Shown: positions 3,230 to 5,855 of the stretch, piece after piece | Numbering within the stretch: the stretch's first letter is position 1 | Layout of the letters: the number at the start of each line of letters is the position of its first letter | IMG/VR virus record: IMGVR_UViG_3300030101_000571 | Span: 1-22,069 of that record | Direction: 5' to 3' (one strand) | Length of the DNA stretch: 22,069 bases | Origin: a virus | Notes under the pieces: model-generated | The model's database searches: none | The model's input: the letters and a program-made list of their open reading frames with translations, nothing else | What the model was told of the DNA's origin: nothing | Position numbers and translations under genes: made by a program

Positions 3230-3510
3230 GCAAAGATCCGAGACTTAAAAGATTTGGATTGTCTGGTTTTAATAAACCCAAGAGAACCCCATCACATCCA
3301 ACAAAGTCTCACGTTGTTTTGGCAAAAGAAGGCGATAAGGTCAAATTAATCAGGTTTGGTATGCAAGGAGCAGCTACAAAACCACCAAGAAAGGGTGAAT
3401 CTGACGCAGATAAGGCAAAAAGACGCAGTTTTAAGGCTAGACACGCAAAAAATATTGCAAAAGGCAAAATGTCAGCAGCTTTTTGGGCAGACAGAACCAA
3501 GTGGAGCTAA
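3226..3510 (+). CDS. 94-aa basic conserved phage protein (RHAKNIAKGKMSAAFWA type)
   Basis: ATG overlaps the previous stop. The 94-residue protein has two conserved blocks: KPKRTPSHPTKSHVVLAKEG with KLIRFGMQG (residues 17-49), and RRSFKARHAKNIAKGKMSAAFWADRTKW near the C-terminus. Both occur in a small family of phage and viral proteins of unknown function that I recognise by pattern, probably a catalogued DUF. The protein is strongly basic. It closes the array of seven tiny basic genes and sits just upstream of the scaffold gene, so a role in head assembly, packaging or DNA condensation is plausible but unproven. Confidence 0.75.
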   Translation: MSKDPRLKRFGLSGFNKPKRTPSHPTKSHVVLAKEGDKVKLIRFGMQGAATKPPRKGESDADKAKRRSFKARHAKNIAKGKMSAAFWADRTKWS

Positions 3511-3539
3511 CATTGTGAATAATTGTAAATTTTTAATTT

Positions 3540-4214
3540 ATGGCAGACGAAGCAATTAAGCCTGACAACTCAGCGGAAATGGCTGCACTTAAGGCAGAAG
3601 TAGACAGACTAAGAAAGTCTAATTCTGAAATATTAGATGATTATAAAAAAGCAAAAGAGGCGGCAAAAGCTGTTCCCCCTGATGTAGATGTAGATGCTCT
3701 CATTGCCTTTAAACAAAAAAAAGAACAGGAGGAGCTTGAGGCAAAAGGTAGATATGAAGAGGCCACAGAAAAACTGGCAACTCAATACAGGCAAGCCGAA
3801 GAACAACAAAAGTTAAAAATACAAGAGCTTGAAAAAAGGCAGAGAGAATTAGAAGTTGAAGCTCCAGCAGTTACAGCCCTTGCTGATGTTGTGCATGATC
3901 CCCAATATGTGCTATCTCGCATTAGCAAGGATCAACTAACAAGAGAGGCTGATGGAACAGTAGTTGTAGTTGATGGATATAACAGAACACCTGTCAAAGA
4001 ATGGGCTATGTCTCAAATGCCTCAATGGGTACAGAAAAACCCAAGACCACAAGGAGGTGGAGCTACAACAACAAAAGTACAGACAGAATTTGTTGCTGCG
4101 ACTGGTGACAAAAACCCATTTGCAAAGGAATCATTTAACTTAACAGAACAAGCGAGATTATATAAAACAGATATTAATAAATATAATATGCTCAAAAACG
4201 CAGTTACAGGTTAG
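3540..4214 (+). CDS. Head scaffolding protein
   Basis: This 224-residue, Glu/Lys/Gln-rich protein sits directly upstream of the major capsid gene, the usual place for a scaffold. Coiled-coil segments are visible at about residues 12-45 (alternating hydrophobics in MAALKAEVDRLRKS) and 60-112 (EQEELEAKGRYEEATEKLA onward). The C-terminus has NPFAKESFNLTEQARLYK near residues 193-210, a short block common at the end of phage scaffolds, where the terminal helix binds coat protein. It would direct procapsid assembly and then leave. The start is preceded by a U-rich leader (TTTTTAATTT) with no Shine-Dalgarno site, as before several other genes here. Confidence 0.8.
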   Translation: MADEAIKPDNSAEMAALKAEVDRLRKSNSEILDDYKKAKEAAKAVPPDVDVDALIAFKQKKEQEELEAKGRYEEATEKLATQYRQAEEQQKLKIQELEKRQRELEVEAPAVTALADVVHDPQYVLSRISKDQLTREADGTVVVVDGYNRTPVKEWAMSQMPQWVQKNPRPQGGGATTTKVQTEFVAATGDKNPFAKESFNLTEQARLYKTDINKYNMLKNAVTG

Positions 4215-4281
4215 TATATAGACAACGTGGTTGTGCCATGTCAGAGGTTGTGCCTCGAAGTAAACATATCTATTAATTCAC
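4215..4281 (+). promoter_or_regulatory. Capsid gene leader: TATATA box and two hairpins with identical UUGUG loops
   Basis: TATATA lies at 4215-4220 just after the scaffold stop. Hairpin 1 pairs ACGTGG (4225-4230) with CCATGT (4236-4241), including one G-U pair, around loop TTGTG (4231-4235). Hairpin 2 pairs GAGG (4244-4247) with CCTC (4253-4256) around the same loop TTGTG (4248-4252). If the TATATA box is a -10, transcripts would begin near 4226-4228, so the hairpins would form the 5' end of the capsid mRNA. There is no U-run after them, so they are not a standard terminator, and no Shine-Dalgarno site precedes the ATG at 4282. Confidence 0.45.
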
Positions 4282-5319
4282 ATGGCGACAGTTCGCAGTG
4301 ATTTAATTATTCCAGAGGTGTTTACACCCTATTTGATCGAGGCTACTACTCAGACTGATAGCTTTCTTCAAAGTGGGGTTGTGCAACCTTTGGCTGAATT
4401 AAATCTTTCAGCAGAAAGAGGTGGCGACTTTGTAAAGATCCCATCATATTCTGCAAACTTATCAGGCGATTTTGAAGTTTTAACAGACTCAACATCATTA
4501 ACTCCAGCAAAGATAACAACAGGCGACCAGATTGCGGCTGTTCTTCACAGAGGACGAGCATTTTCCGCAAGGGATTTAGCTAGTCTTGCTGTTGGCAGTT
4601 CAACTGATCCTATGGCTGCTATTGCTCAAAAGATGGCGGCATACGTCAACAACCAGAAACAGAAGGATTTATATTCTTGCTTAACTGGTGCATTTGGTTC
4701 TATCAACAACAACTCAAGTGCTTCAGCATTGTTTGATTTAACAATCGACAGCGAATCTGGAGACACACCTACAGCATTGAGTCCTAGACACGTTGCTAAG
4801 GCACAGTCATTACTTGGCGATCAAGGTGGCAAGCTTACAACGATTGCAATGCACAGTCGTGTTTACTACGATCTTGTAGAAAGAAGAGCAGTTGACTTTG
4901 TTGCAGCAACAGATATCAACGGTGGTGGTGCTACAGCATCAGGTGGTTCTATTGAGAACGCATTTGGGAATCCAACAGTTCCCACATTCATGGGACTTAG
5001 AGTAATAATTTCAGATGATATTCCAAAAACTGGAAGCGGCTCAACAACTGAGTACAGCGTGTTTATGTTCCAAAACGGAGCAGTTGTAACAGGCGAACAA
5101 GCTCCAATAAGAACACAGACAGATAGAGACATTCTTGCACTTGAGGAAGCTATGGCAGTGGATCTCCACTACATCTATCACCCTGTCGGTCTTAAGTATG
5201 CTGTATCAACAGTAAACCCAAATAGAACAGTCTTAGAGACAGTTGGTTCATGGTCGAGAACTTACGAATTAAAGAATATCGGTATCGTAAGAGCTACCGT
5301 TGTTTCAAATAACGACTAG
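4282..5319 (+). CDS. Major capsid protein (Gp13-like family)
   Basis: This 345-residue protein follows the scaffold and precedes the connector genes. Its N-terminus (LIIPEVFTPYLIEAT, residues 8-22) and the blocks GGDFVKIPSY (47-56), LTPAKITTGDQ (73-83) with LHRGRAFSARDLA (88-100) and DPMAAIAQKMAAYVNNQKQ (109-127) match the siphovirus coat family with the sequence layout of Gp13-like major capsid proteins, which adopt an HK97 fold. Length fits the family. It forms the icosahedral shell. No protease domain or delta domain is visible in it, consistent with the separate scaffold gene. The ATG is chosen because it gives the family-typical N-terminus; it follows a structured leader and has no Shine-Dalgarno site. 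Confidence 0.92.
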   Translation: MATVRSDLIIPEVFTPYLIEATTQTDSFLQSGVVQPLAELNLSAERGGDFVKIPSYSANLSGDFEVLTDSTSLTPAKITTGDQIAAVLHRGRAFSARDLASLAVGSSTDPMAAIAQKMAAYVNNQKQKDLYSCLTGAFGSINNNSSASALFDLTIDSESGDTPTALSPRHVAKAQSLLGDQGGKLTTIAMHSRVYYDLVERRAVDFVAATDINGGGATASGGSIENAFGNPTVPTFMGLRVIISDDIPKTGSGSTTEYSVFMFQNGAVVTGEQAPIRTQTDRDILALEEAMAVDLHYIYHPVGLKYAVSTVNPNRTVLETVGSWSRTYELKNIGIVRATVVSNND

Positions 5320-5331
5320 AGGTAATCAATC

Positions 5332-5697
5332 ATGTCATCTTTATTTGATGTAACTGCTGGGTCATTAATCGGCCCAACAACAGGCGGCACTGTAACTCAG
5401 GCATCTAATAAGTCAACAGGTGTGACTTTAAATGCTGAGTCTGGTCAAATCACCATGAACGGTGCGGCTTTAGGTGCTGGAGCAGAAGTTAGCTTCACTG
5501 TCACTAATAGCAAAATCTCAGCTACTGACGTTGTTCTTGTAAACCATAGTTCTGGCGGTACTGCTGGAGCATATATGGCTCAAGCTAACTTAATTGCTGA
5601 CGGATCATTTAAAATATCTGTTACCAATTTGACAAGTGGATCTGAGTCTGAAGCAATTGTTCTTAGCTTTGTAGCCCTTAAAGGTGCTTCAAGTTAA
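5332..5697 (+). CDS. Probable capsid decoration (head) protein
   Basis: The 121-residue product is a predicted all-beta protein with many G, S, T and V residues. The block GGTVTQASNKSTGVTLN (residues 18-34) and the downstream 'G-Q-I-T-M-N-x-A-A-L' and 'SGGTAGAYMAQA' segments belong to a domain I recognise as a common phage head decoration/structural module placed right after the capsid gene, sometimes fused to other head proteins. A good Shine-Dalgarno (AGAGGT) precedes the ATG. It probably binds the outer surface of the mature capsid and stabilises it (family knowledge plus position). The TAA stop overlaps the next ATG. Confidence 0.65.
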   Translation: MSSLFDVTAGSLIGPTTGGTVTQASNKSTGVTLNAESGQITMNGAALGAGAEVSFTVTNSKISATDVVLVNHSSGGTAGAYMAQANLIADGSFKISVTNLTSGSESEAIVLSFVALKGASS

Positions 5698-5855
5698 TGT
5701 CAATTTACGCTTTTAGGCGTATGAGGGAACAAAACGAAGCTGCTCAAAAGGCGGCTTCAGTTTCCACATCAAAGCCAAAACGCAAACGCAAGTCACAAAA
5801 GGAATCAGTAAATGGCGATCTCAATAGTAGCGACAGTCGGAAGTGCGTCAGCTAA
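5697..5855 (+). CDS. 52-aa basic small phage protein (FRRMRE type)
   Basis: ATG overlaps the preceding TAA (TAATG) and the frame ends TAA at 5853-5855, inside the next gene with a 44-base overlap. The product begins MSIYAFRRMREQNEAAQKAA, then has a K/R cluster (SKPKRKRKSQK) and a hydrophilic tail. Small proteins starting '[AS]-x-Y-A-F-R-R-M-R' followed by a Lys/Arg/Pro-rich stretch occur in other phages between the decoration and connector genes. Function is unknown. The overlap suggests the tail residues (after about residue 38) are under dual coding. Confidence 0.6.
   Translation: MSIYAFRRMREQNEAAQKAASVSTSKPKRKRKSQKESVNGDLNSSDSRKCVS

Follow-up and report, generated by a model that had tools for sequence, protein, structure and literature searches.

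What are two hairpins with different stems and an identical loop doing in the leader of a phage capsid gene? The window, i.e. the whole stretch of DNA analysed here, is a 22-kb viral contig (22,069 nt) that carries, from position 543 onward, cyanophage siphovirus head and tail genes, comprising those for head morphogenesis, scaffold, major capsid, head-tail adaptor and major tail protein. Its isolated relatives are the Prochlorococcus phages MED4-117, MED4-184 and P-HS2, with a capsid identity of 83%, and the Synechococcus phages KBS-S-2A and S-H1, with 64-67% capsid identity. Capsid relatives also turned up inside a single-cell Alphaproteobacteria assembly and a Flavobacteriaceae MAG (L230, L231), probably as stray cyanophage contigs. 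Based on natural variation among relatives, we surmise that the twin hairpins are very probably an RNA operator recognised by the scaffolding protein of the phage itself, by which capsid output would be tuned to the level of free scaffold. The features of the locus are compiled in Table 1.

Table 1. Features of the scaffold-capsid region, in window coordinates
Feature	Position	Strand	Evidence or remark
Head scaffolding protein gene, candidate RNA-binding partner	3540..4214	+	PHROG 206, E 8e-26; loop coevolution
Codons of scaffold residues 11-43, predicted N-terminal helix with loop-tracking E20, R25, S29 and D33 (D34 less strictly)	3570..3668	+	
TAGTAT (stop codon of the scaffold gene and the next three bases), candidate -10 element 5' of hairpin 1	4212..4217	+	
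Hairpin 1, capsid leader: ACGUGG-UUGUG-CCAUGU, loop 4231-4235, one G-U pair	4225..4241	+	Covarying stem kept in relatives
Hairpin 2, capsid leader: GAGG-UUGUG-CCUC, loop 4248-4252	4244..4256	+	In all 406 leaders; covariation
GUAAAC, 3' of hairpin 2	4260..4265	+	Largely conserved across both clades (sequence comparison)
Major capsid protein gene, downstream target	4282..5319	+	PHROG 247 and Pfam Gp13-like

An earlier note on this DNA had pointed to one repeated word topping two different stems. This was exact, as GGTTGTGCC occurs in the window exactly twice (4229-4237 and 4246-4254; 0.12 copies expected), and 0/100 shuffles reached two copies. The folding energy of the leader by itself was not significant (z -0.61) and, because this energy is ordinary, one sequence is unable to decide the matter. 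A 12-codon ORF (ATGTCAGAG...TAA, 4238-4276) overlaps both hairpins in the window. A third GGTTGTG lies inside the capsid gene, at 4377 within 4375-4388 (GGGGTTGTGCAACC), where a small hairpin is possible; this copy, which is variable between relatives of the UUGUG type, has the look of plain coding sequence.

The significance of the twin hairpins derives from the relatives, since these keep the pair and its stem covariation beats 500 shuffles. Twin hairpins with matching loop cores were present in 406/406 leaders (180 unique, the preferable count because the pool contains repeated retrievals of single contigs), a pool assembled from capsid-similarity searches and DNA-pattern matches and found partly by hairpin patterns; several subsets, as well as the 48 further leaders of the final search (see below), were obtained by capsid similarity alone. 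Automatic picking recovered hairpin 1 with the shared loop core in 176/180 unique leaders; in the remaining four (L109, L500, L505, L564), the program took another hairpin and the CUACG loop is visible in the sequence. At the loop centre, the purine-pyrimidine pair (GC, GU, AC and later AU) is identical between both hairpins while the outer loop bases may differ, the loop pairs including UUGUG/UUGUG, CUGCG/CUGCG, CUGUG/CUGUG and CUACG/UUACG as well as UUUGCA/UUUGCA, UGUGCG/UGUGCG, UGUGCG/UUUGCA and UUUGUA/GUUGUC. In leaders with six-base loops, the hairpin 1 stems (CUAG/CUAG, CAAC/GUUG, CUAC/GUAG) gave a covariation score of 0.495 vs. 0.165 in shuffled alignments (0/500 as high); hairpin 2 scored 0.310 vs. 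0.112 (0/500), with a count of both-side-changed pairs that was not unusual; all these alignments were short and anchored on loops, not fitted to stems. Swapping in a foreign 3' arm, across all types, shifted the mean fold from -5.33 to -2.15 kcal/mol, the own 3' arm being better in 87% of 10,120 swaps. Hairpin 1 of the Synechococcus type often contains an internal loop and has a variable outer stem. Chance repetition does not account for the twin hairpins, which are real. The RNA structure that the earlier note had suspected is thus upheld by covariation in the capsid leaders of related phages, and what it had named as contrary evidence, relatives devoid of conserved pairing and loops, came out opposite, both being conserved.

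The element was found, chance matches aside, to be confined in DNA scans to the position before this capsid gene. A scan for twin CUGCG hairpins across 2.9 million viral contigs returned at least 76 new loci; of those 76, all except L234 lay in capsid-leader context, with either a capsid match or a contig end just past the leader. Scans with UUACG and UUUGCA agreed with leader placement, barring matches in coding or unrelated sequence. For the twin UUGUG pattern, which the earlier note had proposed to look for elsewhere, the DNA-pattern scan of viral contigs had a high background, as most matches were repeats in coding sequence that contain the motif. Type-matched hairpins lying up to 1.5 kb from the capsid start were concentrated in two places, the leader and the surroundings of the scaffold start. 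Among distant capsid homologues with roughly 25-38% identity (Pasteurella, Terrisporobacter, Bacillus, Enterococcus, cyanophage S-2L, Vibrio, Salmonella and Alteromonas), the annotated scaffold-capsid spacing is mostly too small for the element, as judged by spacing alone. With Rfam 15, no covariance model scored above the gathering threshold in the window and six relatives, and the sole sub-threshold match in the leader was on the opposite strand (E 2.3). Two known motifs were ruled out, namely CsrA/Rsm binding sites, given loops of YNRYG or six-base forms without GGA, and the TwoAYGGAY RNA, given a loop sequence that differs from AYGGAY and no Rfam match. We found no description of the element or of a scaffold-RNA code in the open-access literature, of which coverage was incomplete, so earlier work may exist.

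Variation in the loop is tracked by the scaffold protein. The nearest neighbour by scaffold shared the loop type in 75/75 Prochlorococcus-type cases, compared to 70/83 by capsid and lower values by other well-covered genes. Coevolution was analysed in 221 unique scaffold-leader pairs over 218 scaffold alignment columns, with columns 80, 85, 89, 93 and 94 corresponding to E20, R25, S29, D33 and D34 in the window. At column 85, E/D goes with loop C (165 pairs) and R/K with loop U (56 pairs), and at column 80, S/R goes with loop C vs. E with loop U; columns 80 and 85 split loop U from C in 221/221 pairs and also in the two clades separately. Columns 89, 93 and 94 split loop A from G, and none of the other columns among the 218 separates loop classes in all sequences. 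Association with the loop was 0.97-1.00 at the scaffold N-terminus and 0.72-0.87 toward the C-terminus; for the first capsid window it was 0.72 and 0.54 in the two clades (baselines 0.55 and 0.44). The sequences are mutually related, leaving a modest number of independent events: on a capsid tree of 184 sequences, the loop pyrimidine and column 85 each changed 16 times, with 8/8 independent contrasts on supported branches in agreement (p 0.008), and each purine column agreed in 6/6 contrasts (p 0.03); when the tree was built from capsid together with the C-terminal part of the scaffold, column 80 agreed in 10/10 (p 0.002). Residues 11-43 are predicted to form a helix in an AlphaFold2 model of moderate to modest confidence, and a search of solved structures returned weak coiled-coil matches at most.

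The residue-base rule was fixed before a final capsid-similarity search in which no hairpin pattern was used. All 48 previously unseen leaders from this search had twin hairpins with a common loop core. Columns 80, 89 and 93 fit the rule in every one of the 35 unique pairs from this search, with column 80 having D besides E for U; column 85 fit in 33 pairs and had a neutral Q in the other 2, and column 94 (residue 34) failed in 7/28 new G-type pairs. In a new loop class, UUAUG, columns 80, 85, 89, 93 and 94 were occupied by E, K/Q, Y, G and K, respectively, which is the residue set to be expected if the pyrimidine and the purine are each read separately.

Hairpins of the same kind were also present around the scaffold start of Synechococcus-type relatives. 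A loop-matched hairpin precedes the scaffold ATG in 108/125 unique starts (control windows 5/2170), mostly ending 3-4 nt upstream, with 17/125 lacking a matched hairpin; a hairpin of another loop class was seen at 0 starts, and the stems covary (0.549 vs. 0.183 shuffled, 0/500). In the new set, 21/28 scaffold starts examined match, 0 mismatch and 7 have no hairpin, loci without a usable start having been left out; the seven hairpin-less starts apparently reflect a misplaced start codon. A second matched hairpin, within the first scaffold codons, was found in 83/131 unique Synechococcus-type genes (control windows 0/655), 82 of the 83 also having the pre-ATG hairpin. Coevolution of hairpin and regulator protein, a mark of autogenous translational operators in phages, was observed in the comparison of loops and scaffold residues above. 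As for the Prochlorococcus type, including the window, neither scaffold-start hairpin was found, and autogenous repression is therefore not indicated for this phage. In KBS-S-2A-like loci (L087, L088, L099, L114, L277, L335), another possible hairpin, GCAAU...AUUGC, replaces CUGCG at the scaffold start, and upstream of the scaffold start in L575 and L577 the stem UUAACC/GGUUAA is kept with a loop of UGUUU or AGUUU.

With respect to the start of the capsid transcript, the TATATA that the earlier note had placed at 4215-4220 is present, and the stop codon of the scaffold gene, taken with the three bases after it, conforms to TANNNT in 166/167 unique leaders. A sigma-70 promoter scan yielded nothing beyond chance, and a putative promoter just before hairpin 1 is weakly supported; no intrinsic terminator, with a GC-rich stem and a run of T after it, was found in 3400-5800. 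The capsid ATG at 4282 indeed lacks a Shine-Dalgarno site, as the earlier note had remarked, but the proposed tie of this lack to the element did not hold, because Synechococcus-type relatives combine a GAGGA-like site with the same hairpins.

Among the roles that had been suggested for the pair, a protein-binding site is favoured because the loop bases coevolve with scaffold residues, and such a site may well control capsid output. We postulate that the N-terminal helix of the scaffold (residues 11-43) contacts the two central loop bases, and that a scaffold dimer, or two subunits, engages both hairpins together; joint engagement would account for both loops staying alike. The bound scaffold would then adjust capsid mRNA output to the free scaffold pool. 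Binding to the capsid leader could repress, activate or stabilise, and a direct block of the ribosome at the capsid gene is uncertain because the hairpin pair ends ~25 nt 5' of the ATG; at the scaffold start of the Synechococcus type, binding should block translation initiation, i.e. autogenous repression. Control by sensing of scaffold would suit the need for scaffold/capsid balance. The observed part of this model comprises the hairpins, their covariation, the concordance of the loops, the residue-base coevolution, the out-of-sample fit and the extra hairpins of relatives; physical binding, the dimer reading, a translational effect and the direction of control are what we infer. On a broader scale, we lean toward a reading, probable rather than assured, in which the scaffold acts as a sequence-specific RNA-binding regulator across cyanophages and sets the scaffold:capsid ratio through a modular residue-to-base code, with residues 20 and 25 reading the pyrimidine and residues 29 and 33 the purine, on the capsid message and, in the Synechococcus type, on its own message as well.

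We also weighed the notion that the partner of the hairpins is some other protein or RNA, of phage or host origin, with the scaffold association reflecting co-inheritance of neighbouring DNA. The scaffold gene does adjoin the leader and phage modules do recombine; however, plain linkage is no explanation because the association is at its highest ~600 nt away, at the N-terminal helix of the scaffold, and is lower in the sequence directly adjoining the leader. Coupled with the weaker association of capsid and other well-covered genes, a single residue rule that spans two clades, independent tree contrasts and new loop classes, and the matching hairpins at the scaffold start of relatives, this makes co-inheritance unlikely in our judgment. 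A structural 5' stabiliser, or an RNase processing site, protecting or creating the 5' end of the capsid mRNA without a specific protein partner, would be in keeping with the location of hairpin 1 just 3' of the conserved TANNNT and with the common stabilisation of mRNA by 5'-end hairpins, but stability alone would not require the loops to be identical or to change in a coordinated way, nor would it require residue-base coevolution, and hairpin 1 energies are weak in several leaders; we regard this role as quite improbable.

Even less probable is a pair of operator sites in the DNA, bound by a repressor or another DNA-binding protein. The two hairpins are adjacent and imperfectly palindromic; nevertheless, DNA operators would be expected to have conserved half-sites and a free centre, whereas here the centres match and the arms differ, and some stems use G-U pairs, with pairing only in the coding-sense RNA. 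Kissing loops, in which mutual loop pairing forces the match, could form two base pairs with GC/GC cores, but AC/AC cores are kept identical despite being unable to pair mutually, and coevolution with the scaffold is left unexplained, so we attach hardly any credence to this possibility.

Binding of the twin hairpins by the scaffolding protein, our preferred reading, bears on the RNA-level balance of scaffold and shell in tailed phages, which is little understood even though autoregulation of the P22 scaffold was reported in the 1980s. Here, natural variation alone points to the RNA that is targeted, to its protein partner and to residues that may make the contact; the hosts of the phages concerned are very abundant marine photosynthesisers. 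If true, assembly scaffolds would join the known RNA-binding regulators, and there would be a residue-to-base code open to direct testing, with four or more specificities occurring in nature, possibly providing a set of orthogonal protein-RNA pairs.

The P22 scaffolding protein, whose autoregulation was reportedly described by Wyckoff and Casjens in 1985 (a reference listed in PMC5744158), resembles the present case in that a phage scaffolding protein is involved, that of P22 controlling its own synthesis. To our knowledge, a twin-hairpin RNA target has not been established for P22; here, there is an RNA element with a loop code, with the pair placed before the capsid gene, and the two are likened by function, not sequence. 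The coat protein dimer of MS2/R17 recognises a hairpin loop and represses translation. Our proposal shares with it a virion assembly protein acting as a dimer on a hairpin loop, but MS2/R17 differs in being an RNA phage with a single hairpin, another protein fold and another target gene. TwoAYGGAY RNAs consist of two adjacent hairpins with the same loop, and we know of no partner for them. This motif (listed in PMC2864571) is like ours in its paired adjacent hairpins with a common loop and unlike ours in loop and hosts. The DNA polymerase of T4, gp43, binds an RNA hairpin and controls its own synthesis, with a loop that varies among relatives (UAAA in RB49; PMC3014915). In that system, one hairpin is paired with a DNA polymerase, whereas here we propose binding between paired hairpins and the helix of a scaffolding protein.
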